Assembly: GCF_001981305.1 (NCBI RefSeq)
Contig: NZ_MSCW01000005.1
Span: 248,001-312,000, forward strand
Direction: 5' to 3'
DNA length: 64,000 nucleotides
Source: Marinobacter lutaoensis
GTDB taxonomy: Bacteria; Pseudomonadota; Gammaproteobacteria; Pseudomonadales; Oleiphilaceae
Below the pieces are notes generated by a model that worked only from the letters and a program-made list of their open reading frames with translations, searched no databases and was not told the DNA's origin. The number at the start of each line of letters is the position of its first letter. The stretch's first letter is position 1. The position numbers were made by a program, and so were the translations under genes. Positions 3,044-19,261 of the stretch are shown piece by piece.

Positions 3044-4495
3044 TTGAGAAACCTTTACCCCGTTATCTTCATCGTCAGCGTCATGTTCATTCTGCTGAGC
3101 ATCTTCATGACGCTGCCGGTCCATTTGCTTGCCTTTTCGGGAGCGCCCAATGCTATGGCGTTCGCGAAGTCGGCCGCCATCGTGTGCGGGCTGGGCATTC
3201 TGGGCATCCTGTGTACCTATCGACAGCCCCGGGATCTCAAGCCCCGGTTCATGTTCGTGCTGACGGTCTCCAGCTGGCTGATCGTCGCCCTGCTCTCCGC
3301 CCTGCCGTTTTACCTGAGCAACCACGGCATTTCGATGACCGATGCCTTCTTCGAATCCACCTCCGGCATCACCACCACCGGCGCCACGGTATTCAGCGGC
3401 CTGGACCAGATGGATCCCGACCTGCTGCTGTGGCGCTCCATCCTGCAATGGATGGGAGGGATTGGCATCATCGGCATGTTCGTCGCGGTACTGCCGTTTC
3501 TGCGGGTGGGCGGCATGCGGCTGTTTTCCACCGAGTCGTCGGAGTGGACTGACAAAGCGCTGCCGCGGATGAAGACATTGAGCCGGAGCCTGCTGTTTGT
3601 CTACGTGGTGCTGACGGCGTTCGGGGTGTTGATCTACTGGCTCTCCGGCATGACCCTGTTCGATGCTTTCAATCATAGCCTGACCAGCATCTCGACCGGA
3701 GGCTTCTCGACCTCCGACCAGTCGATGGGCAAGTTCAACGACCTGATCCTGCTCGAGTCGACGTTGATCATGATCCTGGGCAGCCTGCCGTTCTTTCTGT
3801 ACGTGCGCGAGATTCACGGCCAGCATGGTGTGCTGTTCCGGGATCAGCAGGTACGCTTGTTCCTGGCCATCCTGTTCGTGGTGCCGGTGCTGATCACCCT
3901 GTATCGCTGGTGGGTATCGCCGATTCCGTTCAACCCGCTGCACAACTACGTGGCCACCCTGTTTAACGTGACGTCGGTGATCACCACCACCGGCTATGCC
4001 TCGGAAGATTATTCCACCTGGGGGCCGCTGGCGTTCGTGGTGTTCTTCTTCCTGATGTTCGTCGGGGGCTGCTCCGGCTCCACCGCCGGGGGCATGAAAA
4101 TCTTCCGCTTCCAGTTGTCGCTGATCATCCTTCGGGAACAGTTGATGCGACTCCTGCACCCCCGGGCGGTGTTGAGCCGGAATTTCAACGGTCGTGCCGT
4201 CAGTGACGAGATCATCTCGTCCATGATCGCCTACACCTTTATCTTCCTGCTCAGCCTGCTGCTGATTACCGTGGCCCTGGCGGCGATGGAGCTGGACTTC
4301 ATCACCGCCATCACCGGAGCGCTGACAGCGCTCACCAATGTGGGGCCCGGCCTGGGTGACATCATCGGCCCCGCCGACAACTTCGCGCCCCTGCCCGACG
4401 CCGCCAAATGGGTGCTGTCCATCGGTATGCTGATGGGGCGTCTCGAAGTGCTCAGCGTGGTGATCGTGCTGTCCCCGGCGTTCTGGCGCGGCTAA
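3044..4495 (+). CDS. trkH: Trk-type potassium uptake channel subunit TrkH/TrkI
   Basis: The inner-membrane protein has 483 residues and many transmembrane helices. The selectivity-filter loops of the TrkH/TrkG/KtrB superfamily are visible as four repeats: FESTSGITTTGATV (near residue 103), HSLTSISTGGFSTSDQ (near 215), FNVTSVITTTGYASED (near 310) and TALTNVGPGLGD (near 432). FVGGCSGSTAGGMKIFR is the typical segment before the fourth repeat. The C-terminus RLEVLSVVIVLSP is also conserved. It moves K+ inward with a TrkA subunit, which is not in this window. The start is TTG; the frame is closed by a stop at 3008 and no ATG precedes it. It converges on glgP five bases away. Confidence 0.9.
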   Translation: MRNLYPVIFIVSVMFILLSIFMTLPVHLLAFSGAPNAMAFAKSAAIVCGLGILGILCTYRQPRDLKPRFMFVLTVSSWLIVALLSALPFYLSNHGISMTDAFFESTSGITTTGATVFSGLDQMDPDLLLWRSILQWMGGIGIIGMFVAVLPFLRVGGMRLFSTESSEWTDKALPRMKTLSRSLLFVYVVLTAFGVLIYWLSGMTLFDAFNHSLTSISTGGFSTSDQSMGKFNDLILLESTLIMILGSLPFFLYVREIHGQHGVLFRDQQVRLFLAILFVVPVLITLYRWWVSPIPFNPLHNYVATLFNVTSVITTTGYASEDYSTWGPLAFVVFFFLMFVGGCSGSTAGGMKIFRFQLSLIILREQLMRLLHPRAVLSRNFNGRAVSDEIISSMIAYTFIFLLSLLLITVALAAMELDFITAITGALTALTNVGPGLGDIIGPADNFAPLPDAAKWVLSIGMLMGRLEVLSVVIVLSPAFWRG

Positions 4496-4500
4496 CGGGG

Positions 4501-7026
4501 CTAGCGCATCCAGATCACCGAGGCATCCTCCAGCGGCAGAGTCAGTCGGTTGTCGCCCACCACGATCCTTGGCGTGTAGTGTCCCTTGGGTCGCGCCGGT
4601 ACCCGGCACTGATAGACCCAGGTATGGCCGGACCCCGGCAGGGCTTCCTGAACGGCCATGGGCTGAACCAGCCGTGGCCCGAATTCCGAGGCCTCCGCCA
4701 CCAGCTCCACCCGGATCATGCGCTCATCCAACCCGTCCAGGTATACGTCCACCGTCACCTGTTGCTCTCCGTCCAGCGTCTGCACCTCCATTCCGGTAAA
4801 GCGGATCCGGGGCCAGTGCCCGGCGATTTGCCGGGACTGCTCAACCAGCGCCTGAGCCACCGCTGCCGTCCGCTGCCGTCCGTTTTCGCTCATTGGCAGA
4901 TAAAAGTCTTCGACATACTGCCGAACCATCCGGTTCGCGGAATAGGTTGCAGTGAGCGTGTTCATACTGGTGCGCACCCGGGCGAGCCAAGCCTCCGGCA
5001 GCCCGTCCGCGTTGACATCGTAAAACGCCGGAATGACCTCATTTTCCAGCAGCTCGAACAACTCCAGGGCATCGGAGGCGTCGTGGTCATTGGTATGACT
5101 CAGCTCCTCGAAGGTCGCGCCGGGGCGGATGGCCCAGCCCACTTCCGGACGCCAGGCCTCGGCCCACCAGCCGTCGAACTGTGAGACGTTGAGGCCGCCG
5201 TTCACCAACACTTTCATGCCGCTGGTGCCGCAGGCTTCCCAGGGATGCCTGGGCGTGTTCAGCCAGACATCGACGCCCTGCACCAGCTGATTGGCCACGC
5301 CCAGGTCGTAATCCTCGATGAACACCACCCGGCCCTCGACCTCCGGACGACGGGAAAACCGCTTCCAGCGCTGGATCAGCGCCTTACCGGTATGGTCGTG
5401 GGGGTGGGCCTTGCCCGCCAGGACGATCTGCACCGGCCGGTCCCGCTGGCTGAGCAGCCGCACCAAGCGAGCCTCGTCGCTCAACAGCAGGTCGGGACGT
5501 TTGTACTCGGTAAAGCGCCGGGCAAATCCCAGGGTCAGGGTCTCGCTGTCCAGCAGAAGGCCGCAGGCAGCCTGAGTATTGCCACCGGGATGGTGTGCAC
5601 AGTGCTGGCTGGCCAAGCGTTGGCGGAGGTAGTGGATCAGGCGCCTGCGCTGCGCCAGGCGCATGTGCCACAGTGTCTGGTCGGAAACCTCCGCCAAGGG
5701 CTCCAGGGTTTCCATAGGGCGGCACCAGCGATCCTGGCCGCAGGCGCCGGTCCACAGTTCATCCGACTCCGGTGAGTCCCAAGACGGCGTGTGAACGCCG
5801 TTGGTGACATATTCCACCGGTATGTCTTGCCTTGGCCAGCGGGGGAAAAACGGTTGAAAGATGGTCTGGGAAACCTGTTGGTGAATCCGGCTCACGGCAT
5901 TGACCCGGCCGCTCATGGCAAGGGCCAGACGGCCCATGTTGAGCAGTGGGTCGCCGGTAGCGTCCCGGTCGTCGTCGTGCACTCCCAGGGCCACCAGTTG
6001 CTCCACGGACAGGTCGCTCTGGGCCAGCCAGGGCGCCAGGTACAATTCCAGTTGACGCCTGGGAAAGCGGTCGAAGCCCGCGGCCACCGAGGTGTGGGTG
6101 GTGAACAGGTTGCTGACCCGGGTGGCCGAGCGGGCGGTCTCAAAATCCCGTTCGTTGTCCCGGCCCCAGGACAGCGCCCGCTCCACCAGGGCCAGCGCGC
6201 AGTGCCCCTCGTTGATGTGGCAGACGGCCGGGTCCCGCTTCAGTTTCCGTAACAGGCGCCAGCCACCGATCCCCAGCATCATTTCCTGCTGCAGGCGCTT
6301 TTCCGGGTCGCCGCTGTACAGTTCGCTGGTGATGCCCCGGTCACCGGGCTCGTTGCGGGGGTCGTTGCTGTCAAGCAGGAGCAGTTCGCAGCGGCCGACC
6401 TGGCCGATCCAGGCTCGCAGGCGCACATCGCGCCCTGGCAGCGGCACGGTGACACGCAGCCAGCCGTCATCTTCGTCCCGCAAGGGCGACAGCGGCAACA
6501 TGGTGGGATCGTTATAGGGATAGAACTCCAGCTGCTCACCGTCTGCGCTGATGGCTTGGCGGAAGTACCCCTGCTGGTACAGCAGGCCCACCGCCGTGAC
6601 CGGCACGCCCAGGTCGCTGGCGGCCTTGAGGTAGTCTCCGGCCAGCACGCCGAGCCCGCCGCTGTACAGCGGCAGCGATTCGCTCAGACCATACTCCATG
6701 CAGAAAAAGGCGACGCCCCGCTCCAGCTTGCCGGGGTGGGCTTCGGAGTACCAGGTTTCCGCACGGGTAAACGCCGCGTGGGCGGTCAGCTGGGCCTGAA
6801 GGCGTTGCAGAAAGTCCGGGTCGTGGCTCAGCATATCCAGACGTTCGCCGGAAACGCCGTTCAGAACCAGCCAGGCGTTGCGGGTACTGTTCCAGGTGTC
6901 TTCATCCAGGGCCTGCCACAGCCGGTCGCTGCCGTGATGCCAGCTCCAGCGAAGATCGAGAGCCAGGGTGAACAGCCCGCCAAGGGCCTCGGGGAGTCGT
7001 CTCGGCCGATAGGCGTATAGAGTCAT
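4501..7026 (-). CDS. glgP: Alpha-glucan phosphorylase (GT35), copy 1
   Basis: The 841-residue glycogen/maltodextrin phosphorylase releases glucose-1-phosphate from alpha-1,4-glucan ends using pyridoxal phosphate. Near residue 110 it has FFCMEYGLSESLPLYSGGLG, typical of the short bacterial alpha-glucan phosphorylase family rather than the E. coli GlgP/MalP type. The PLP-lysine block is EACGTSGMKVLVNGG near residue 600, with FDGWWAEAW following. HINEGHCAL and FARRFTEYKRPDLLL are further conserved blocks. It is the last gene of the leftward run glgC, GH57, malQ, pilZ, glgP, so it supplies the phosphorolytic branch of the same alpha-glucan pathway. A second homologue lies at 15531-18086. Confidence 0.92.
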   Translation of the reverse strand: MTLYAYRPRRLPEALGGLFTLALDLRWSWHHGSDRLWQALDEDTWNSTRNAWLVLNGVSGERLDMLSHDPDFLQRLQAQLTAHAAFTRAETWYSEAHPGKLERGVAFFCMEYGLSESLPLYSGGLGVLAGDYLKAASDLGVPVTAVGLLYQQGYFRQAISADGEQLEFYPYNDPTMLPLSPLRDEDDGWLRVTVPLPGRDVRLRAWIGQVGRCELLLLDSNDPRNEPGDRGITSELYSGDPEKRLQQEMMLGIGGWRLLRKLKRDPAVCHINEGHCALALVERALSWGRDNERDFETARSATRVSNLFTTHTSVAAGFDRFPRRQLELYLAPWLAQSDLSVEQLVALGVHDDDRDATGDPLLNMGRLALAMSGRVNAVSRIHQQVSQTIFQPFFPRWPRQDIPVEYVTNGVHTPSWDSPESDELWTGACGQDRWCRPMETLEPLAEVSDQTLWHMRLAQRRRLIHYLRQRLASQHCAHHPGGNTQAACGLLLDSETLTLGFARRFTEYKRPDLLLSDEARLVRLLSQRDRPVQIVLAGKAHPHDHTGKALIQRWKRFSRRPEVEGRVVFIEDYDLGVANQLVQGVDVWLNTPRHPWEACGTSGMKVLVNGGLNVSQFDGWWAEAWRPEVGWAIRPGATFEELSHTNDHDASDALELFELLENEVIPAFYDVNADGLPEAWLARVRTSMNTLTATYSANRMVRQYVEDFYLPMSENGRQRTAAVAQALVEQSRQIAGHWPRIRFTGMEVQTLDGEQQVTVDVYLDGLDERMIRVELVAEASEFGPRLVQPMAVQEALPGSGHTWVYQCRVPARPKGHYTPRIVVGDNRLTLPLEDASVIWMR

Positions 7027-7066: not shown

Positions 7067-7414
7067 TCAGGCCCGCCGTCGGAACGGTGGGTGAAACGAC
7101 GCGGCGGCACTCTGATCCTGCAGCCACTGCAACAGCCGTGAAATGTCCAGGGCATCCTGCTCGGTGGTGTCGAAATCGACACCGAGTCCATCGGCCGCTT
7201 TGCGGACGATGTGGGCCTTCAACCGGCCTGCCCTTCCCGGATAGCATAGTTCAAGCTCGATCGACTGGTTCAGCGCGACATCGTCGTAATCGGTGGCGAT
7301 GAAGGCACCGCGCCGCGAGGCGTTGATGATCTGCCCGCTGGCGACCGGCAGGCCGCGCTTGTACACGAGAATGGGAAGTTTGCCGAGAATGCGTGTGCTG
7401 AGCCGGTGTTCCAT
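7067..7414 (-). CDS. PilZ-domain protein inside the glycogen operon
   Basis: The start ATG at 7414 has a strong GGGAGG site; a longer in-frame start at 7498 has none and would overlap the malQ stop. The 115-residue product is essentially one PilZ domain. It contains the cyclic-di-GMP-binding R-x-x-x-R as RLSTR (residues 4-8) and N-x-S-x-x-G as NASRRG (residues 31-36), so ligand binding is expected. There is no membrane segment or second domain. It sits between malQ and glgP with short gaps and on the same strand, so it is probably co-transcribed with the glucan genes. A role in coupling c-di-GMP to storage-glucan turnover is inference. Confidence 0.83.
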   Translation of the reverse strand: MEHRLSTRILGKLPILVYKRGLPVASGQIINASRRGAFIATDYDDVALNQSIELELCYPGRAGRLKAHIVRKAADGLGVDFDTTEQDALDISRLLQWLQDQSAAASFHPPFRRRA

Positions 7415-7494: not shown

Positions 7495-8988
7495 TCAATT
7501 CTTGATCGGAAGTTTCGGCAATCGTTCCGTTTCGGCCACCAGTTTCCGGATGTTTTCCGCCAGTTCCGTCGTGCAGAGCGTCAGGTCCAGCTGCCAGATC
7601 CAGTTGCCGTTCACCGTGCCCGGCTTGTTGAAACGGGCTTCCGAGCCCAGCCCAAGAAAATCCTGGACCGGCACCACCGCGAGCCAGCTCACCGAGCGCA
7701 TGACCGTTGCGATGGCCGGCCAGGGCATGTTGTGGCCATCGGTGTTCAGGTACTGGTCAACGTAGTTCCGGGTCCGGTCATCCAGGCTCCGGTACCAGCC
7801 CAGGGTGGTGTCGTTGTCATGGGTGCCGGTATACACCAGGTCTTCCGGCTGGTGACGGTGCACCAAGTGTGGATTGTCCGGGTTGCCGTCAAAACCGAAC
7901 TGCAGCACGGTCATGCCCGGAAGCTGGAAGTCGTGGCGCAGCTGTTCCACCTCCGCGCTGATGACCCCGAGGTTTTCCGCTACCAGCGGCAGCTCGGGAA
8001 AACGCCGGAAACAGGCCTCGAGAAACTGCCGGCCGGGTCCGGGTACCCAGCGGCCGAACCGGGGCTGGGGCGTACTGGCGGGAATTTCCCAGTACGCTTC
8101 GAAACCCCGGAAGTGGTCAATGCGTATCAGGTCGAACAGATGGCGCTGGCTGTCCAGCCGATCCAGCCACCAGTCGTAGCCGGAAGCGGCCAGGCGCTCC
8201 CAGTCATACAGCGGATTGCCCCAGTGCTGGCCGTCCGGCGAGAAGTAGTCGGGCGGAACCCCGGCCACGGCGGTGGGCAGGCCATGGGCATCCAGCTTGA
8301 ACAGGTGGCGGTTGGCCCAGACATCGGCGCTGTCGTGGGCGACAAAGATGGGGATGTCGCCAAACAGCAGCACGCCCCGGGCACGGGCGTAGTCACGGAT
8401 GTCCCGCCACTGGTGGTGAAACAGGTACTGTTCAAAACAGATCGCCTCCAACAGGTCGCGGTTGGCCTCGGAGAAGGCTTTGAGAGCGGCCGGGTCCCGG
8501 TGCCGGTAGGGTTCCGGCCATTGCAGCCAGCTGCTGCCGGGGTGCCGCTCACGGAGCGCGGAAAACAGGACGAAGTCTTCCAGCCAGCGCCGGTGTGACC
8601 GGCAAAACCGGTCGTAGTCCTCGCGCCCGAGCCGGCCTTCACCCCGGGAGAACCGGGTCGCGGCCCGGCGCAGAAGCGGCTGGCGCCCCTGCTGCTCGAG
8701 CTCGTCCAGCTCCTCCGGGCGCAACAGGCCCAGGGTCGCCAGTTCGGACACATCAATAAAGGCCGGATTGCCGGCGTGCGCCGACAGTGACTGGTACGGC
8801 GACAAGTCCCGGTGCGTCGGGCCGACGGGCAGTGTCTGCCAGACACTCAGGCCGCTGTCGGCGATGAAATCCACGAACCGCCGGGCAGTGTCGCCCAAGG
8901 GGCCGAAGCGTCCGGCCAGGGCGGTCGGATGCAGCAGGACACCGGCTCTCCGGGTATGCCAAAGTCGCCTGGGGGAAAGACTGCTCAT
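7495..8988 (-). CDS. malQ: 4-alpha-glucanotransferase (amylomaltase, GH77)
   Basis: The 497-residue cytoplasmic enzyme transfers maltodextrin segments between alpha-1,4-glucans. The catalytic blocks of GH77 are present at the expected spacing: RIDHFRGFEAYW with the nucleophile Asp near residue 290, VAENLGVI with the acid/base Glu near 338, and TGTHDNDTT with the transition-state Asp near 390. SPYQSLSAHAGNP near residue 65 is a family signature. The length matches the short (Thermus-like) amylomaltases rather than the approximately 690-residue E. coli MalQ. The start ATG overlaps the GH57 stop (ATGA), indicating coupling. Confidence 0.93.
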   Translation of the reverse strand: MSSLSPRRLWHTRRAGVLLHPTALAGRFGPLGDTARRFVDFIADSGLSVWQTLPVGPTHRDLSPYQSLSAHAGNPAFIDVSELATLGLLRPEELDELEQQGRQPLLRRAATRFSRGEGRLGREDYDRFCRSHRRWLEDFVLFSALRERHPGSSWLQWPEPYRHRDPAALKAFSEANRDLLEAICFEQYLFHHQWRDIRDYARARGVLLFGDIPIFVAHDSADVWANRHLFKLDAHGLPTAVAGVPPDYFSPDGQHWGNPLYDWERLAASGYDWWLDRLDSQRHLFDLIRIDHFRGFEAYWEIPASTPQPRFGRWVPGPGRQFLEACFRRFPELPLVAENLGVISAEVEQLRHDFQLPGMTVLQFGFDGNPDNPHLVHRHQPEDLVYTGTHDNDTTLGWYRSLDDRTRNYVDQYLNTDGHNMPWPAIATVMRSVSWLAVVPVQDFLGLGSEARFNKPGTVNGNWIWQLDLTLCTTELAENIRKLVAETERLPKLPIKN

Positions 8989-10718
8989 GATCCGCCATCG
9001 CCGTCCTGTTCGTGGCCCTGACGCATGGCTCCGCCGCGGGCCGGCTCGCCTCCGCCCTGGCTGAGTTGCTGAAAGATCGAGGCCGGCGGCTCATAGCCGA
9101 TCAGGTCGTACAGACTGACCAAGTGGCGCCGGTACAGCTGTTCGAAGTCGGAAACGATCTGGGCCGGGTTGTAGTCGCCAAACCACCAGAACCAGTCCGA
9201 ACCCTCGCACAGCGCCAGCTGGCGTCGGGCTGCCTCTTTCCGGTCCGTGCCCAGGGTGCCGTTGTCCATAGCCCGGTCGTAGTGTCCCTTCGCCTCGCAC
9301 AGCAGATCCCAGGCCCGGTTCTTGTCGGGGTCTCCGATCCAGGTGGAGAAGGTGCCGTAGATCCAGCTGCCCGCCACCAGACGGGGCAATGTCACCGGTG
9401 GTGCCACCGGCCGCTCCAGCAGCTCCTGATAGGTGGTCAGGCGCAGGTACGGGTGTTTGGACAGCACCCGGTACAGCTCGTCGAGGAAGTGGATGCCGTT
9501 GTCCGGATAGTACTCCCAGGCATTCTCGCCATCGAGGATCACCGAAATCACCGGTGGCGGCCGCCCGACGGCACTCCTGGCGATGTTCTCCATGTGGTGG
9601 ACCAGATCACCGACGGCATCCTTGGCGTGCCAGTCGGCGTAGGTGAAACCGATCAGGTCGGACAGGCCATCGTCGCGAAAGAATACGGTGATGTCGGCGT
9701 CGCCGAAACGGTAGCTCTGGTGAATGCCTGCGGTGTCCGGGGCCTGGCCCTGCTCCCGTGCCCGTGCCAGGCTGTTGTTGATTACCGAGTCACCACTGGC
9801 GGTCCAGCGGAAGCCCTGCCGGGACAGAACCTCCAGGGTGGCCTGGCTCAGCGCGCCCTCCGAGGCCCAGCAGCCCGTGGGCTCCATGCCGAAGCAGCGT
9901 TGAAACAAGGCTCGGGCCTCGGCCAGCTGCCAGTCGGCGCGCGCCTCCCCGCCCGGGTAGGCGGGGTGGCGGGGAAGCCGGATATCGGGCATGGCCTCCC
10001 GGGCCGCGCCCAAATCCAGCAGCAACGGCAGGATCGGATGGCTGTACGGGCTCACCGCCAGCTCCACCTGCCCTTTCTGGGCCAGGGCCCGGTAGCGGGG
10101 GATGATGCCCGCCATGACCTCGTACACCACGTCCAGCAGGGCTTTGCGGTCTTCCAGGGTAAAGCCGGCACCTTTTTCCTGCAGGCTCTGCACCCGGGCA
10201 TTGGTGCGTCGCACCGTTTCGCCCATCCAGCCCAGGTGGTACCACACCAGAAGATCGGTGAGCAGAGACGGGGAAAGATACCGCTGGATGTCGGGACGGC
10301 TGCGGTAGAAGGCGGCGAGATCGGCCAGGCGGGCATAGGCGGGAAAGCGGTTGATGATGCGGTCTTTGTTGGCCCGCAGCGATTTGTCCATGAGTTCCAG
10401 GAACGCGGGGCTGCCCGGCACCGGCAATTCCGTGGACACCAGGGCCGCGAGCATCGGGTCGCCCAGCGTGCCGGCACCGTGACGCCAGCGCTCAATCTGC
10501 ACCAGGTAAGTTTCCAGCTGTTCCAGCAGCACCGGGGCGAAATTGACGACCGCGCGGGCGTCCGGGTGTGTCTCCAGGTGCGCCGCCATGTCGCTGTAAT
10601 CCTTAATGGCGTGCAGGTAGACCCAGGGAAAAACGAACTGTCCGGTTTGGCGGGCGTAATAGCTGGGCTGGTGCATATGCCAGCACAACACCACCGGGGT
10701 TTTGCCGTCAGAGGCCAT
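8985..10718 (-). CDS. Glycoside hydrolase family 57 (amylopullulanase/alpha-amylase-like)
   Basis: The 577-residue protein begins with [13 protein letters not shown], the first GH57 motif (H-x-H-Q-P). [10 protein letters not shown] near residue 280 holds the catalytic Glu nucleophile, and [12 protein letters not shown] near residue 394 holds the Asp acid/base; this wording is typical of the amylopullulanase-like branch of GH57. No signal peptide is seen, so it should work on intracellular alpha-glucan. It overlaps glgC by 11 bases upstream and malQ by 4 bases downstream. Its likely role is hydrolysis or debranching of glycogen; no GlgX-type GH13 debranching enzyme is present here. Exact specificity cannot be told from sequence. 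Confidence 0.87.
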
Positions 10719-11973
10719 GGGGGTAGTCCTGCCCGAGCATTTCCGGGGTGATCAGCACCACGCCCTTACTGGAGACATGAAAGCGTTTGCGGTCCTCATC
10801 CGGGTCAAACCCTACCACGGTGCCCGGGGCGAGTCGGCAGCCCCGGTCGATCAGGGCCTTGCGGACCCGGCAGTTGCGGCCGATCTCGACATCCGGAAAG
10901 ATCACCGAATCGGTGACTTCGCTGAAGGAATGGACCCGGACCTGGGAGAACAGCAGCGAGTGCTTCACTTGAGCGCCGGACACGATGCAGCCACCCGCCA
11001 CCATGGAGTCAACGGCGGTGCCGCGCCGGTTGTCGTCGTCGAACACGAATTTGGCCGGAGGCAATTGTTCCTGATAGGTCCAGATGGGCCACTCGGAGTC
11101 ATACAGGTTGAGTTCCGGGCTGACGCCGATCAGTTCCAGATTGGCCTGCCACAGGGCATCGACGGTGCCGACGTCCCGCCAGTAGGCCGGAGCGCTGGTG
11201 GCCGGATCGCGGAATGGGAACGCCATCACCCGCAGCCGCCGGATCACCGAGGGAATGACGTCCTTACCAAAGTCATGGGACGAGCGTTCCTGCAGCTGAT
11301 GGTCCCGGATCAGCTCTTCGAACAGAACACGGGTGTTGAACACGTAGATGCCCATGGAGGCCAGGGCCCGGCCCGGGTTGCCGGGCATCGGCCGGGGCTG
11401 TGCCGGCTTTTCCTCGAACTCGCGGATGCGGTATTCGTCGTCCACCGACATCACGCCGAGGGCCGAGGCCTCCTCGATGGGCACCTCGATGCAGCCGACG
11501 GTGATGTCGGCCTCGCTTTCCACGTGCGCGGCCAGCATGGTGCCGTAGTCCATCTTGTAGATGTGATCACCGGCCAGGATCAGCACATACTCCGGATGGT
11601 GGCTGCGGATGATGTCGAGATTCTGGAGAACCGCGTCGGCGGTGCCCTCGTACCAGGAGGTTTCGATACGCTGCTGGGCCGGCAGCAGTTCGACAAATTC
11701 GTCCATTTCGCCCCGGAGAAACCCCCACCCGCGCTGGATGTGCCGGATCAGGGAATGGGACTTGTACTGGGTGATCACGCCCACCTGCCCGATCCCGGAG
11801 TTAATGCAATTGGATAACGGAAAGTCGATGATCCGGAATTTGCCACCAAAGGGCACGGCAGGCTTGGCCCGCCACTTGGTGAGATCATGGAGACGCGACC
11901 CGCGGCCACCGGCGAGAACCAGGGCGAGGGTCTGCCGGGTAAGCCGGCTGACGAAGCGCTTGGCGGTATGCAT
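10708..11973 (-). CDS. glgC: Glucose-1-phosphate adenylyltransferase (ADP-glucose pyrophosphorylase)
   Basis: The start is placed at 11973 (MHTAKRF), with AGGGA upstream; an in-frame start 26 codons earlier lacks a ribosome site. The 421-residue product makes ADP-glucose, the committed step of glycogen synthesis. It shows [17 protein letters not shown] (nucleotide-binding loop), [19 protein letters not shown], the glucose-1-phosphate region [13 protein letters not shown] and [12 protein letters not shown], followed by the left-handed helix repeats at the C-terminus. It is the first gene of the leftward glucan operon and is divergent from glgB, so the two arms share a 186-base control region. 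It is likely allosterically regulated, as are family members. Confidence 0.95.
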
Positions 11974-12092
11974 GGGTCCATCCCTGCAACGGAGTGTCAC
12001 ACTGCCGATGGCCGTGATTGGAAACCGACAGAATTCGTACTGTCGTAACAATACTAGGACAATATCACGGAATTATGACGTAGAATTGCCAA

Positions 12093-12159: not shown

Positions 12160-14046
12160 ATGGATAGCCCCCTGCTCAGTGACTACGACCTGTATCTGTT
12201 TGGTGAGGGTCGTCACTGGCACATCTACAACGTCCTGGGAGCGCACCCCTGCCAGTTCCAGGGCGAGCATGGCGTCCGCTTCGCCGTATGGGCGCCGAAC
12301 GCTACCGCGGTCAGCGTGATTGGAGACTTCAACGGCTGGCAGCCGGCATCGAGCCCAATGCAGTGCCACGGTGCCTCCGGCGTGTGGTCGGCATTTGTTC
12401 CGGGGCTGGAGCCCGGCGCGCTGTACAAATTCGCCATCACCACCCGTCGGGGCGAGGTGCGGGTGAAGACCGACCCCTACGGCCAGCAGTTCGAGCTGCG
12501 CCCCGCCAATGCCGCCGTGGTCACCGCGCGGGAGCCGTTCAACTGGGGCGACGGTGACTGGCTCGCCCGCCGACGGCAGGATGCCTGGCAGCAGACGCCC
12601 CTCTCCGTCTACGAGGTTCACGCCGGCTCCTGGCGCCACCATGGTTCGGGCCGCTGGCTCACCTACCGGGAGCTGGCCGACCAGCTGATCCCCTACGTAC
12701 TGGAGCTGGGGTTTACCCACATTGAGCTGCTGCCGGTCACTGAACACCCGCTGGATGAGTCCTGGGGTTACCAGACCACCGGTTACTACGCCCCCACCCG
12801 CCGGTACGGCAGCCCCGACGACCTGCGCTATCTGGTGGACCAGTGCCATCGCCATGGCATCGGGGTGCTGCTGGACTGGGTACCCGGCCATTTTCCCGAG
12901 GACGAACACGCCCTCGCCCGGTTCGACGGTACCGCCCTGTACGAACACGAAGATCCCCGCCGGGGCAAGCACCAGGACTGGGGCACGCTGATCTACAACT
13001 ACGGTCGCCACGAAGTCCGTAACTTCCTGATCGGAAGCGCCCTGTACTGGCTCGACACCTACCATCTCGACGGCTTGCGGGTGGACGCCGTGGCCTCCAT
13101 GCTGTACCTCAACTATTCCCGGCGTGACGGCGAGTGGCTGCCCAACGCGCACGGGGGCAACGAGAATCTAGAGGCCATCGACTTCCTGCGGACCCTCAAC
13201 GAGGTCTGCCAGACCCGGTTCCCCGGCATTCTGATGATTGCCGAGGAATCCACGTCCTGGCCCCAGGTGACACGCCCGCCCCGGGTCGGCGGCCTGGGCT
13301 TCAACCTCAAGTGGAACATGGGTTGGATGCACGACACCCTGGACTACCTGAGCCACGACCCGGTGCACCGGCAATACCACCATGACAAGCTGACGTTCGG
13401 TTTAATGTACGCTTTCTCCGAGAACTTCATGCTGCCCCTCTCCCACGACGAAGTGGTGCACGGCAAGGCCAGCCTGCTGCACAAGATGCCTGGGGACGAT
13501 TGGCAGCAGCGGGCCAACCTGCGCTTGCTGTTCGCCTACCAGTACACCTACCCGGGTGCGAAGCTGTTGTTCATGGGCGGCGAGTTCGGCCAGCGTCGGG
13601 AATGGAGCGAGATCCGGGAGCTGGACTGGGAACTGCTCCAGTACCCCGGGCACCAGGGACTGAAAACTCTGATCCGGGACCTGAACCACCTCTATCGGGG
13701 CACCCCGTCGCTGCATGCCCGTGACTACCGCGCCGACGGTTTTGAGTGGGTCGATTGCCACGATGCTCCGCAGTCGGTGATCAGCTACCTGCGTCAGGGC
13801 CCGGATGACACCACCCTGGTGGTGATCAACTTCACCCCGGTGGTGCGCTACGGTTACCGCATCGGTGTGCCCCGGAGCGGCCACTGGCGGGAAGTGCTGA
13901 ACACCGATTCCACCTACTACGGTGGCAGTAACGTCGGCAATCCGATGGGCCTGGCGGCACGGGACGAACCCTGGATGGGGCGCCCGGCTTCCCTGGAACT
14001 GACGCTGCCGCCACTGGCGGCGGTGGTCCTGAGGCCGGCCACGTGA
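12160..14046 (+). CDS. glgB: 1,4-alpha-glucan branching enzyme (GH13)
   Basis: The 628-residue cytoplasmic enzyme creates alpha-1,6 branches in glycogen. An N-terminal CBM48 domain ([21 protein letters not shown]) precedes the GH13 barrel. The triad is visible: Asp309 in [10 protein letters not shown], Glu362 in [10 protein letters not shown] and Asp430 in [10 protein letters not shown]. It is about 100 residues shorter than E. coli GlgB because the extra N-terminal (N1) domain is missing; the protein starts at the point equivalent to E. coli LLSEGTH. It begins the rightward operon and overlaps glgA by four bases (GTGA). Confidence 0.95.
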
Positions 14047-15500
14047 CGCGGGTCCTGTTCATCACCAGCGAAGTCTACCCGGTCATCAAAACCGGTGGTC
14101 TGGCGGATGTGTCCGGGAGCCTGCCGGAGGCCCTCTGCCAACAGGGCCTGGATACACAGATTCTGCTGCCCGGCTATCCCGCCGCCATGGAAACGGCCCG
14201 GACGACCGGCGCACGGCGGGAAGCCCAGCTCAGCCTGGGCCAGTATCACCTCAGCCTTTGGCGCACGCGCCTGCCTGGCACCCCCGTCACCCTCTGGCTG
14301 GTGGACTGCCCGGCGTTGTTCGACCGCCCGGGCAACCCCTATCAAAACGACGACGGCCAAGACTGGTGGGACAATGCTCACCGCTACCAGCTGTTCTGCC
14401 GGGTCGGTGCCATGATGGCGAGTGGCCAAGTCGGACTGAGCTGGCAGCCGGACATCGTCCACTGCAACGACTGGCAAAGCGGCCTGGTGCCGGTGTTTCT
14501 GGATGCGCTGCCGAAGCGCCCCGGTACCGTGTTCACCATCCACAACCTCGCCTATCAGGGGGTGTTTTCCTGGGAGACGTTCCGGGCGCTGGGCCTGCCG
14601 GACAGCCTGTGGCGCTTCGATCGTCTGGAGTTCCATGGCCAGTTGTCATTCATCAAGGGCGGGCTGGTGTACGCCGACCGCCTAACCACGGTCAGTCCCA
14701 GCTACGCCCAGGAAATCCAGACCCCGGAATTCGGTTATGGCCTGGACGGGCTGCTGCGCTATCGTTCAGACCACCTTACCGGCATCCTGAACGGAATCGA
14801 CACCCGGATATGGAACCCCACCGAGGACCCCTACCTGGATTTTCACTACGATTTCGGCCAGATTGAAAACAAGACCCAGTGCAAGGCACGGCTGCAACAG
14901 CAGCTGGGGTTGGAGCGCACCGGTGCGCCGCTGTTCGGCTTCATCGGCCGGCTGGTGGAACAGAAGGGCATCGACTGGATACTCGCCGTGTTGCCCGGCC
15001 TGCTTGACCGTGGCTGCCAGATCGCCATTCTCGGCTCCGGCGAGCCCCGCTACGCCGACCCCCTGCGGGCCCTTGCCCACCGTCACCCCGGGCAGCTGTC
15101 ACTGACCCTGGGATACGACGAGCCGCTGGCGCACCGGATCACCGCGGGCGCGGATCTGTTTCTGATGCCGTCGCGTTTCGAACCCTGTGGCCTGAACCAG
15201 ATGTATTCCCTGCGCTACGGCACCGTGCCGGTGGTGCATGCGGTGGGCGGCCTCAGGGACACGGTCCGGGACTACGACGATGCCGGTGCCGCCAAGGCCA
15301 CCGGGTTCTGCTTCCGGCAGCCGGGCCCGGATGGACTCTGGCAGGCCGCGACCCGGGCCCTGGCCGTCTACGACAACCGCAGGGCCTGGCGTCGCCTGCA
15401 GCGCAACGGCATGGCCATCGACCACTCCTGGGGCCGGCGGGCAAAGGAATACCAGGCATTGTATCGGGCGATCCTGAGGGATCGTTGCAACCACTCATAG
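14043..15500 (+). CDS. glgA: Glycogen synthase (GT5, ADP-glucose dependent)
   Basis: The 485-residue enzyme extends alpha-1,4-glucan chains from ADP-glucose. It carries the [13 protein letters not shown] motif at residues 16-28, the ADP-glucose-binding loop, [10 protein letters not shown] near residue 162, [11 protein letters not shown] near 250, and the C-terminal [19 protein letters not shown] block near residue 377 with the catalytic Glu. The length matches the family. The GTG start overlaps the glgB stop, and glgP copy 2 follows after 30 bases, so synthesis and degradation genes share a transcript. Confidence 0.95.
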
Positions 15501-15530: not shown

Positions 15531-18086
15531 ATGGACAAGGCGACGCGATTCCGCCTCGAAGCCCGGCCCTCGATCCCGGAGGCGCTCGACCGCCTGGATG
15601 AGCTGGCCAACGACCTGTTCTACAGCTGGGACCACGGTGTCCGGAACCTGTTCTCCCGCATCGACCGCCCGCTCTGGCAGAAAGTCGAGCACAACCCCAA
15701 ACTGTTTCTGCGCCGGGTGGCACAGGAGCGCCTGGACGAAGCGGCCCAGGACCGCGCCTTCATGGCGGAATACCGCCGGGTCCTGAGCTCCTACGATGCC
15801 TACGTGGAGTTCGAGCCGGTGCCGGAGGTGACGGAAATCCTGGACCCGGCCAGCAACCTGGTGGCCTATTTCTGCGCCGAGTTTGGCTTTCACGAGAGTT
15901 TCCCGATCTATTCCGGAGGTCTGGGTATTCTCGCCGGTGACCATTGCAAGGCGGCCAGCGACCTGGGCCTGCCGTTTGTGGCCGTTGGTCTGCTTTACCA
16001 GCAGGGTTACTTTATTCAAACCATCGATGCCCAGGGACAGCAGATCGCCCGCTACCAGTCTCACTCCAGCGATGAGCTGCCCATCACCCCGGTAACCCAA
16101 GGCAACGGCGAGCAGCTCAAGGTGTCGGTGCCCTTTCCCGGGCGCCTGGTGGTCGCACGGGTGTGGCAGGCCCGGGTCGGGCACATCCGCCTGTACCTGC
16201 TCGACAGCCACACCGAGGAGAACAGCGAGCAGGACCGGGAGCTGACCCAGCGCCTGTACGGCGGCGACGAGTCCACGCGCATCAGTCAGGAAATGCTGCT
16301 GGGCATCGGCGGTACTCGGGTGCTGGAGGCCCTGGGCCTGAGCCCCACCGCCTGGCATATCAACGAAGGTCACGCCGCGTTCCTGATTCTCGAACGCTGT
16401 CGTCAGCGCATGACCGAGGGGCTGTCGTTCAAGGCCGCGCTGGAAGCGGTGGCCGCCTCCACGCTGTTCACCACCCACACCCCGGTTCCGGCCGGCCACG
16501 ATATTTTTTCCCGGGACCTGGTCCAGCATGCCCTCGGTCGCTATCTCGAGGAATCCGGACTGGACTTTGAAACGGTGTTCGCGCTGGGCGCCAAGGCAGG
16601 GGATCACAGTTTCAATATGACCAGCCTCGGGCTGCGGGGATCACGCTTTCACAACGGTGTCAGCCGTATCCATGGCGGCGTCGCCTCGGCCATGGAAGGG
16701 GCCATCTGGCCACAGATTCCGCCGGAGGAAAATCCCATCGGCTATATCACCAACGGCGTCCACGTACCCACCTTTCTGGCGCCGGAATGGGCCAGCCTGT
16801 TCGACATCCACGCCCCCACCTGGAAAAGCGAACTGCGCAACCCGGAGTTCTGGAGTTTTGTTGACCAGATTCCCGATTACCACTACTGGAGCGTGCACAA
16901 GGCCCTGAAACAGCAGATGGGCGAGTTCGTGGTGGAGCAGCTGGAGCGGCAACACCAACGCAACGGCACCGGCCACTCGGTGACCGAGCGCATGACCCGG
17001 CAACTGGTGTCACCGGAAAAGGACACGCTGGTGATCGGCTTCGCCCGACGTTTCGCCACCTACAAACGGGCCACCCTTATTTTCGCCGACCTGGAGCGCC
17101 TTGAGCGCTTGCTGACCGACCCCGAGCGGCCGGTGGTGCTGATTTTCGCCGGCAAGGCTCACCCCAGGGACAACCCCGGCCAGCAACTGATCAAGGTGAT
17201 TCACGAGTTGTCCATGCGGCCGTCGTTGATGGGCCACATCCTGCTGCTGGAGGATTATGACCAGGCCATGGCGCGGCAGATGCTGGCAGGCGTGGACGTA
17301 TGGCTCAACAACCCCGAGTATCCGAAGGAGGCCAGCGGCACCTCCGGAGAAAAGGCTGCCCTCAATGGAGCCCTGAACCTGAGCATCCTCGATGGTTGGT
17401 GGGGCGAGGGTTACGATGGCCACAATGGCTGGGCGATCACGCCCCGGGACACCCGTCTGGATCCGGAATTCCGGAATCAGGAGGAAGCCCGGGACCTGCT
17501 CGACCTGCTGGAGCATGACATCATCCCCCTCTATTACGACCGCGCCTCCCAAGGGTATTCCAAGGGCTGGGTGGCCCGCTCCAAGGCATCCATGAAGACC
17601 ATCACGCCCCGGTTCAACAGCCAGCGCATGGTGATGGATTATGTGGAACGCTATTACGAGCCGGCCTCCGCCCAAGGGGATCGGCTGCTCGCCGACAACG
17701 GTGCGGAAGCCCGGGAACTGGCCGAATGGAAGGCCCGGGTGCGCCAGGCCTGGAGTGGCGTGTCACTGAAGGTGGTCGGCTGCGTGGAGGAACTCTGCCG
17801 CAGCGACGGCAGTATCGCGCTGCGGGTGGAGGCGGATCTGAATGGACTGAATGCCGGGGATGTGCGTGTCGAGTGCCTGGTCACCCCCGAATGCACCGGC
17901 AGCCATGACTCACCCGGTCCGGACCGGTTCCTGCTGACGAAAGCCTCGGAACAGGATGGCCGGACGGTGTTCGAGACGGAAGTGGCGCCGCCCTATCCGG
18001 GACTGCAAACCCTCCGCCTCCGGATGTATCCCTACCATCCGGCCCTCACCCACCTGTTCGAGATGGGCTGCATGCTCTGGGCCTAA
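15531..18086 (+). CDS. glgP: Alpha-glucan phosphorylase (GT35), copy 2
   Basis: The 851-residue phosphorylase belongs to the same short bacterial family as the protein at 4501-7026, but is clearly diverged from it. It shows YFCAEFGFHESFPIYSGGLG near residue 105, HINEGHAAFL near 280, GFARRFATYKRATLIF near 505 and the PLP block EASGTSGEKAALNGALN near 605, with LDGWWGEGYDG after it. The methionine before the PLP-region lysine in copy 1 (GMK) is Glu here (GEK). It is the third gene of glgB-glgA-glgP. Its stop overlaps the stop of the convergent acyltransferase gene (CTAA). Two phosphorylases may differ in chain-length preference or regulation. Confidence 0.92.
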   Translation: MDKATRFRLEARPSIPEALDRLDELANDLFYSWDHGVRNLFSRIDRPLWQKVEHNPKLFLRRVAQERLDEAAQDRAFMAEYRRVLSSYDAYVEFEPVPEVTEILDPASNLVAYFCAEFGFHESFPIYSGGLGILAGDHCKAASDLGLPFVAVGLLYQQGYFIQTIDAQGQQIARYQSHSSDELPITPVTQGNGEQLKVSVPFPGRLVVARVWQARVGHIRLYLLDSHTEENSEQDRELTQRLYGGDESTRISQEMLLGIGGTRVLEALGLSPTAWHINEGHAAFLILERCRQRMTEGLSFKAALEAVAASTLFTTHTPVPAGHDIFSRDLVQHALGRYLEESGLDFETVFALGAKAGDHSFNMTSLGLRGSRFHNGVSRIHGGVASAMEGAIWPQIPPEENPIGYITNGVHVPTFLAPEWASLFDIHAPTWKSELRNPEFWSFVDQIPDYHYWSVHKALKQQMGEFVVEQLERQHQRNGTGHSVTERMTRQLVSPEKDTLVIGFARRFATYKRATLIFADLERLERLLTDPERPVVLIFAGKAHPRDNPGQQLIKVIHELSMRPSLMGHILLLEDYDQAMARQMLAGVDVWLNNPEYPKEASGTSGEKAALNGALNLSILDGWWGEGYDGHNGWAITPRDTRLDPEFRNQEEARDLLDLLEHDIIPLYYDRASQGYSKGWVARSKASMKTITPRFNSQRMVMDYVERYYEPASAQGDRLLADNGAEARELAEWKARVRQAWSGVSLKVVGCVEELCRSDGSIALRVEADLNGLNAGDVRVECLVTPECTGSHDSPGPDRFLLTKASEQDGRTVFETEVAPPYPGLQTLRLRMYPYHPALTHLFEMGCMLWA

Positions 18087-19261
18087 CCCGCGGTTGCGGC
18101 CAGGGACGTGGCCACGGGGTTGGCGTACATGTCCAGCAGATAGGGACGAATGGCCGGCTCGCAGGCCGCCAGGCGACGCTCCATTTCCGCTTCCGCCGCG
18201 GCCAGGTCCGCCGGTGACCAAGTCTCGGCAGTCACCACCGCGTCGCTGACCGACTCCGGAGTGGCGTGGGCGTCCGGGTGTACACCACGCATCTGGTAGG
18301 CCACCAGGTTCGAGGCGTGCAGGTGGTAGTTGGCGTGCATCTCCCGGTCGATCCGGGCCGCCAGTTCCTTCGGGCTATCCGGCGCGTCGTGTATCGGGGT
18401 GCCGAAATGGACGTGAACATGCCCCTTGAACCCCCGCAGCCCCTTGACGATCTGCTCGCTGTCCTCACCCTCGGCCTTGGTATAGGAGCCGGTCCGGGCC
18501 CGGATTTCCAGCTCCCGGGCCTTGTCGGCGTCGCACGGGTCGTACTCATAGGCAATGGAGACCGGTACGATGTGCAGGCGGTTCATCGCCTCGCCGAAAC
18601 CCAGGCCACTTTTCTTCTGGCTCATGTAGAACATTTTGATGATCGCCGGGTCGGTGTGGTCCAGGCCGTCCTTCGCCCTGCCTTCGCGCTGCGCGATCCA
18701 GATACTGTGGTTGGTGTCAATGCTGTGGTTAATGAAGCTCGACAGCGTCATGTAGGCGTCCCGCATTTCCCGAGGGCTGGTCAGGTTGCGGCGCACCACG
18801 AAGCTCTTGTTTAGGCGCATCATTTCCGCAAACACCCGGTTTTGCAGTAGGTTGTCGCCGATGGCGATGCGGGTGGTATGAAAGCCGTTCTGGAACAGCA
18901 GGTAATTGACCACCATCGGGTCGAACACGATGTCGCGATGGTTGGAAATGAACAGGTAGGGGCTATGCTTGTCCAGCCGCTCCAGGCCGCTGTGGGTCAC
19001 CCGTGTGGTGGTGTGCTCCACCAGCTCGCCCACGTAGCGGGAGAGGTGGGCCTGAAGGTCGTCCACCCGGGTGATGCCGCCAAAGTGGCGAGCCAGCCAG
19101 CGGCGGGTGAAGCCGCGCAGCACCGCCGGAGCCCAGCGGGCCAGGGTCGGCGACTTGAACCGACCCACCATGTCCAGGAATTCCTGGTCGTCGAGCAGAC
19201 GCCGGATCGCCGGAGCCGTCTCTTCGTCCGAATAGGGACGGATGGCATCAAAATCCTGCAT
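18083..19261 (-). CDS. PlsC-like 1-acylglycerol-3-phosphate acyltransferase family protein
   Basis: The 392-residue protein has no strong membrane segments. SNHRDIVFDPMVV near residue 107 corresponds to the acyltransferase HX4D active-site motif, but the Asp usually aligned with the motif lies six, not five, residues after the His; a different Asp sits at +2. WIAQREGRAKDG near residue 188 matches motif III (E-G-R/T). The regions before and after these motifs are longer than in E. coli PlsC. It probably transfers acyl chains to a glycerophospholipid or related acceptor; the substrate is uncertain. An AGGA site precedes the ATG at 19261. It converges on glgP with overlapping stops. Confidence 0.72.
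   Translation of the reverse strand: MQDFDAIRPYSDEETAPAIRRLLDDQEFLDMVGRFKSPTLARWAPAVLRGFTRRWLARHFGGITRVDDLQAHLSRYVGELVEHTTTRVTHSGLERLDKHSPYLFISNHRDIVFDPMVVNYLLFQNGFHTTRIAIGDNLLQNRVFAEMMRLNKSFVVRRNLTSPREMRDAYMTLSSFINHSIDTNHSIWIAQREGRAKDGLDHTDPAIIKMFYMSQKKSGLGFGEAMNRLHIVPVSIAYEYDPCDADKARELEIRARTGSYTKAEGEDSEQIVKGLRGFKGHVHVHFGTPIHDAPDSPKELAARIDREMHANYHLHASNLVAYQMRGVHPDAHATPESVSDAVVTAETWSPADLAAAEAEMERRLAACEPAIRPYLLDMYANPVATSLAATAG

Follow-up and report, generated by a model that had tools for sequence, protein, structure and literature searches.

The stretch of DNA analysed here (the window) comprises 64,000 nt of a Marinobacter lutaoensis contig and carries a glycogen cluster with trkH and plsB at its flanks (Table 1). 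The genes malQ, pilZ and glgP1 lie on the minus strand, and glgB, glgA and glgP2 on the opposite one. Two DUF3417-type phosphorylases, which are about 40% identical to each other, occur in this single cluster. The small gene pilZ is separated from malQ by 80 nt and from glgP1 by 40 nt. An initial annotation had described it as a stand-alone PilZ gene with both binding motifs between malQ and glgP, on the same strand and with small gaps, and this description was confirmed.

Table 1. Positions of the genes of the window and of related features in other sequences
Feature	Sequence	Position	Strand	Annotation
trkH	window	3044..4495	+	cluster flank; adjoins pilZ in genomes without native glg genes
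glgP1	window	4501..7026	-	DUF3417-type glucan phosphorylase (Pfam); directly downstream of pilZ
pilZ	window	7067..7414	-	single-domain PilZ protein
malQ	window	7495..8988	-	4-alpha-glucanotransferase, GH77 (Pfam); directly upstream of pilZ
GH57 gene	window	8985..10718	-	GH57 family glucan enzyme (Pfam)
glgC	window	10708..12051	-	ADP-glucose pyrophosphorylase; nucleotidyl transferase and GlmU/GlgC-type C-terminal domains; named by context
glgB	window	12160..14046	+	branching enzyme (Pfam); divergent
glgA	window	14043..15500	+	glycogen synthase, GT5 (Pfam)
glgP2	window	15531..18086	+	second DUF3417-type phosphorylase (Pfam)
plsB	window	18083..19261	-	other cluster flank; named by eye
lone glgA-like gene	L035	340-1824
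lone glgA-like gene	L038	296-1765
lone glgA-like gene	L053	2593-4062
GGDEF-EAL gene	L145	9375-11174	+	beside pilZ (G029)
GGDEF gene	L152	4737-6080	-	beside pilZ (G093)
short-chain dehydrogenase gene	L077	4765-5535		example
glgP2-like stretch	L066	230-397		beside plsB (G126)
hsp20	L144	4383-4838		adjoins pilZ
hsp20	L145	7476-7931		adjoins pilZ
hsp20	L147	2659-3114		adjoins pilZ
hsp20	L149	4083-4535		adjoins pilZ
G029-enzyme fragment	L147	3753-3962		degraded
G029-enzyme fragment	L149	2744-3570		degraded

The open reading frame of pilZ encodes 115 amino acids and begins with an ATG located five bases after a GGGAGG stretch. This start is supported because M1, E2, R4 and R8 are invariant in a 45-row alignment of the protein (A1). 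The Pfam search assigned residues 4-94 to the PilZ family (PF07238, 6.5e-7, 30.1 bits with the cut-off at 22.5) and returned no second domain in the protein. Both motifs of c-di-GMP binders are intact in the window protein, RxxxR as RLSTR at residues 4-8 and NxSxxG as NASRRG at residues 31-36. Among the pilZ open reading frames of the genus RxxxR was present in all 80, and [DN]xSxxG as well as the combination of both in 79. As first aligned the latter count was 76 of 80, and three more sequences displayed RxxxR after correction of a start that had been set too far in. The single exception is a distant second paralogue in L145 (G029), which has kept RxxxR and is missing the D/N. Outside the genus RxxxR was found in 9/9 copies and [DN]xSxxG in 8/9, the copy L225 being without the D/N. 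In the genome (3.83 Mb) PilZ is matched 11 times and GGDEF 43 times, with 42 GGDEF matches above the family cut-off. Judged by its sequence the window gene is a PilZ of the c-di-GMP-receptor type, and its product is likely to bind c-di-GMP.

The AlphaFold2 model of the protein is a six-stranded PilZ barrel (mean pLDDT 86) with strands from residue 9, a C-terminal helix at residues 85-107 and low confidence at residues 1-4 (pLDDT <50); the RxxxR arm precedes the first strand, the barrel thus having the form seen in c-di-GMP-binding PilZ proteins. The best structural match was the PilZ domain of cellulose synthase BcsA (4i86, Z 13.9), and further receptor matches were YcgR (5y6g, Z 12.7), VCA0042 (12.1), PA0012 (11.8), MapZ (5xly, 5y4r; between 9.8 and 10.7) and PlzA (8.7). 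Xanthomonas pilus PilZ structures reached Z values of 6.1-7.1, aligned over model residues 22-100 only. As modelled, the fold is nearer to c-di-GMP receptor structures (Z 8.7-13.9) than to pilus PilZ, a common fold proving neither binding nor function. In a PDB sequence search with the single PilZ sequence no match was obtained up to E 1, and the weak matches of ribosomal protein L19 to the profile of a second alignment (A2) were taken as chance.

Several known PilZ proteins may serve for comparison. According to the title of 5xly, MapZ of Pseudomonas aeruginosa, like the window protein a small single-domain PilZ, forms a complex with c-di-GMP and a partner enzyme; a point of difference is that this partner is the chemotaxis methyltransferase CheR1. 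The type IV pilus PilZ proteins XAC1133 and XC1028 belong to the same domain family. XAC1133 is not known to carry the c-di-GMP motifs, the absence of which marks the non-binding type IV pilus PilZ; both motifs are present in the window protein. For XC1028 trivial c-di-GMP binding is stated in the title of the structure entry. The BcsA barrel carries RxxxR and DxSxxG according to the available part of a review (PMC12564702). The BcsA domain (4i86, 4p00) shares barrel, motifs and the closest fold with the window protein and controls a glucan-making enzyme, but it is fused to a membrane beta-glucan synthase, whereas the window protein is free and encoded beside alpha-glucan enzymes.

Conservation of pilZ with the glg genes, the lack of which would have refuted the initial annotation, was analysed in 124 Marinobacter genomes and was strong. 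The gene is present in 75 genomes, 68 of which have a native glg cluster. A GlgC match (E 1e-60) was obtained in 71 genomes, and setting aside G026 (60% identity of GlgC) and G111 (52%) leaves 69 with native glg. The resulting table comprises 68 genomes with both, 7 with pilZ only, 1 with glg only and 48 with neither (Fisher 1.4e-25, kinship ignored). The sole genome with glg only (G032) is 62% complete, and there the contig breaks off within the GH57 gene, which lies upstream of the place of pilZ. On a tree of 110 genomes 9 changes were counted for pilZ, 12 for glg and 3 for the state of pilZ without glg, and pilZ and glg changed jointly in 7/7 independent pairs on supported branches (sign test p 0.0156). 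Being built from trkH, plsB and recQ, which flank the cluster (plsB and recQ were named by eye), it is a locus tree; it leaves out 11 of the 124 genomes without flank data, including G006, G029 and G093, and 3 of the remaining 113 with too few columns; 35 of its 110 rows fill less than half of the columns.

The gene order is conserved as well. In 65 genomes pilZ is the gene immediately after malQ on the same strand, with gaps of 50-177 nt (median 104 nt). In 59 genomes glgP1 follows: 24 have the close spacing of the window, with 8-241 nt, and the other 35 have a gap of 649-885 nt. Eight of the larger gaps were opened, and each contained a short-chain dehydrogenase gene; a match to such a gene was observed in 41 of 152 loci, usually between pilZ and glgP1, and is absent near pilZ in the window. 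The dN/dS of pilZ had a median of 0.105 (range 0.019-0.664) over 150 pairs of genomes with glg, which shows purifying selection. In Marinobacter pilZ is a conserved part of the glycogen cluster. A scan of named genomes with the alignment yielded 49 loci, 48 of them titled Marinobacter and one titled Halomonas sp. MAG; the same scan with the single PilZ protein confirmed no relative.

Within the order 16 of 293 sampled genomes match the PilZ profile. Eight of them are Marinobacter, and the other eight provide nine pilZ places in three families (f9, f16, f31). At eight of the nine places pilZ immediately follows malQ; the remaining one, which begins 167 nt from the end of its contig, shares its downstream genes with its relatives. 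The eight non-Marinobacter copies placed in alignment A2 are 23-38% identical to the window protein. Among 23 non-Marinobacter genomes with a GH57 gene, 5 carry pilZ after malQ and in 18 none was found; in 2 of these 18 the contig ends too early, so that 16 of 21 testable GH57-type clusters outside Marinobacter are without pilZ. With profile A2 at 1e-6, PilZ was matched in 86 of 369 genomes of a class sample (own genome included); at the 29 other loci returned, tblastn showed no glg gene in the flanks, which extend up to about 1.5 kb to either side. Absences in these samples are not firm, because only the best 15 candidates per genome were scored in the order sample and the best 12 in the class sample. 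The glycogen-linked PilZ lineage is demonstrated only in this order.

Information about a possible partner came from clusters that have been broken or relocated. Native malQ is missing from G006, G029 and G093, the last of which has a 30% partial match only. In G006 pilZ is located 171 nt downstream of glgC, in G029 it is on the strand of glgC at a distance of 2.7 kb, and in G093 it is divergent from glgA with glgC on another contig. These three together with G087, G088 and G118 possess pilZ and a phosphorylase of the glgP2 type only; G087 and G088 have kept the malQ-pilZ order. The patterns of G006, G029, G093, G087 and G088 indicate that pilZ can be retained without MalQ and without GlgP1, whereas glgC and glgA are present in all five; MalQ and GlgP1 were rejected as obligatory partners on gene-loss grounds. 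Gene loss also argues against GH57 as an obligatory partner, with thinner evidence than for GlgP1 and MalQ: no match was found in G006, and in G029, G093 and G259 the absence of the gene holds for the stretch covered only. Judged by gene loss, one of the retained core enzymes (GlgC, GlgA, GlgB or GlgP2) is a better candidate for the partner than MalQ, GH57 or GlgP1. The initial annotation had named the phosphorylase or GlgC as possible targets; due to the retention of pilZ without glgP1 the adjacent phosphorylase is unlikely to be the sole partner, and GlgC stays among the candidates.

Two of the relocated genes have an intact GGDEF neighbour, and these are the only two in 153 sequences scanned, window included. 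In G029 pilZ, a dehydrogenase gene, a PAS-GGDEF-EAL gene and glgC follow each other in this order on one strand, and in G093 an RsbRD-PAS-GGDEF gene lies 414 nt after pilZ on the same strand. Degraded fragments of the G029 enzyme adjoin second pilZ copies of G084 and G142, and among the 153 sequences it is matched further only in L141 and L143, where the matches lie at the distal end, past trkH.

The position of pilZ in a glycogen operon suggests c-di-GMP control of carbon storage, and a functional link between the gene and glycogen is probable. The best reading, held with a confidence little above even, is that PilZ would be a c-di-GMP receptor serving glycogen metabolism via contact with a glucan enzyme; direct contact with a Glg enzyme, taken by itself, has a somewhat less than even prospect. 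According to this reading a cytoplasmic receptor would be co-transcribed with glgC-GH57-malQ(-glgP). A rise of c-di-GMP would lead the flexible RxxxR arm, together with the NxSxxG strand, to wrap the nucleotide and so to change a surface of the barrel, and PilZ would then contact a glucan enzyme so that glycogen metabolism is altered. By analogy, the gating of cellulose synthase by the BcsA PilZ domain and the binding of CheR1 by MapZ may be regarded as models for such a contact. As a tentative and more specific proposal, which is rather doubtful at present, the dedicated PilZ lineage of Marinobacter and the three families would be a c-di-GMP-responsive regulatory subunit of GlgC, GlgA, GlgB or GlgP2.

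The strongest alternative concerns the target. PilZ could bind c-di-GMP and be expressed with the glycogen genes for their storage or stationary-phase timing, and act elsewhere, e.g. in motility, on surface polysaccharide or within the Hsp20/stress response. The gene has been retained in seven genomes that have no native glg cluster (G011, G019, G081, G125, G138, G144 and G111), and in each of them it lies beside trkH. Six of these gave no GlgC or GlgP match (E 1e-60) and no MalQ or GlgA match (E 1e-20), and G111 has a divergent glg cluster with no pilZ after its malQ. The only pair of glg-less genomes below saturation, G011/G138, displays a pilZ dN/dS of 0.113, and selection on PilZ therefore persists in lineages that have no glycogen genes; in the pair G081/G144 dS is 1.8 and thus near saturation. 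Because these seven genomes keep the gene, a role beyond glycogen is likely, at least in them. Moreover, in both G084 and G142 a second copy of pilZ (L147, L149) is located away from glg and beside hsp20, with no glg genes in the surrounding 7-kb stretch, and an Hsp20 gene follows pilZ in the f9/g9 clusters. Against a target outside glycogen metabolism stand the joint changes of pilZ and glg in all independent pairs, the presence of pilZ with relocated glg clusters that are without malQ and glgP1, and the malQ-pilZ order in four families despite the low identity outside Marinobacter. This alternative is accordingly considered unlikely, although it is the most serious one.

A chance insertion, inherited with its neighbours and without any functional link, would agree with the survival of pilZ at the old site beside trkH in the seven genomes. 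It is improbable in view of the same position in four families with only 23-38% identity outside Marinobacter, the location of pilZ near glgC or glgA after relocation, the 7/7 joint changes and the low dN/dS over 150 pairs. Still less probable is an adaptor function in which the PilZ barrel is a protein-binding module of glycogen enzymes and makes no use of c-di-GMP, since, although non-binding PilZ proteins exist, such as that of P. aeruginosa with critical DxSxxG residues missing (available part of PMC12564702), and L225 is without the D/N, the motifs are maintained throughout the genus in 80/80 and 79/80 open reading frames and the model is closer to receptors (Z 8.7-13.9) than to Xanthomonas pilus PilZ (about 6-7), a fold that shows no function.

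For the preferred reading, a c-di-GMP receptor that serves glycogen metabolism, the nearest known case is the GlgX of Streptomyces, which is activated by c-di-GMP and binds it itself, as stated in the available part of PMC9530166, where PilZ does not occur. The available parts of two reviews (PMC10519070, PMC12564702) give GlgX as an effector acting on glycogen. The likeness consists in the c-di-GMP control of glycogen metabolism, which in Marinobacter is a proposal. GlgX is a glycoside hydrolase with its own c-di-GMP site, whereas here a separate protein of 115 amino acids with a PilZ domain only is encoded, in a different phylum. The statement of the initial annotation that no case was known in this gene order agrees with the literature searched: among the matches listed in open-licence PubMed Central, judged by titles and the starts of abstracts, no PilZ gene in a glycogen operon was found, and neither PilZ nor di-GMP occurs in the first 300,000 of 445,374 characters of a 2024 alpha-glucan review (PMC11046441). 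If the more specific proposal of a regulatory subunit is true, c-di-GMP control of glycogen would have evolved independently a second time, in addition to GlgX of Streptomyces, and some genomes would even have a dedicated diguanylate cyclase within the glycogen cluster.

The second messenger c-di-GMP is best known for governing whether bacteria swim or live on surfaces. With a receptor built into the glycogen operon, this decision would be tied to carbon storage in Marinobacter and its relatives. The claim lends itself to direct test, as the gene is short and conserved, encodes a single domain, and is naturally present in some close relatives and absent from others.

Further features of the locus were recorded. 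A terminator-like hairpin at 7484-7469 had suggested that the malQ-pilZ gap might hold a conserved RNA structure or terminator. This candidate was dropped; terminator-like sites were present in only 7 of 65 malQ-pilZ intergenic stretches, with sequences differing between groups, and the scan of the window gave 5 such sites compared with 5.1 in shuffles. Next to plsB in G126 lies a short sequence resembling glgP2 (75% identity), probably left behind by a deletion of the cluster along with pilZ. A lone glgA-like gene (56-58% identity) is located between trkH and plsB in G059, G027 and G098, all without a GlgC match. Finally, an Hsp20 gene adjoins pilZ in four Marinobacter genomes and also in six f9/g9 loci (L221-L224, L226 and L227), and two GAPDH genes come after it in five of these six loci, the sixth of which reaches a contig end.
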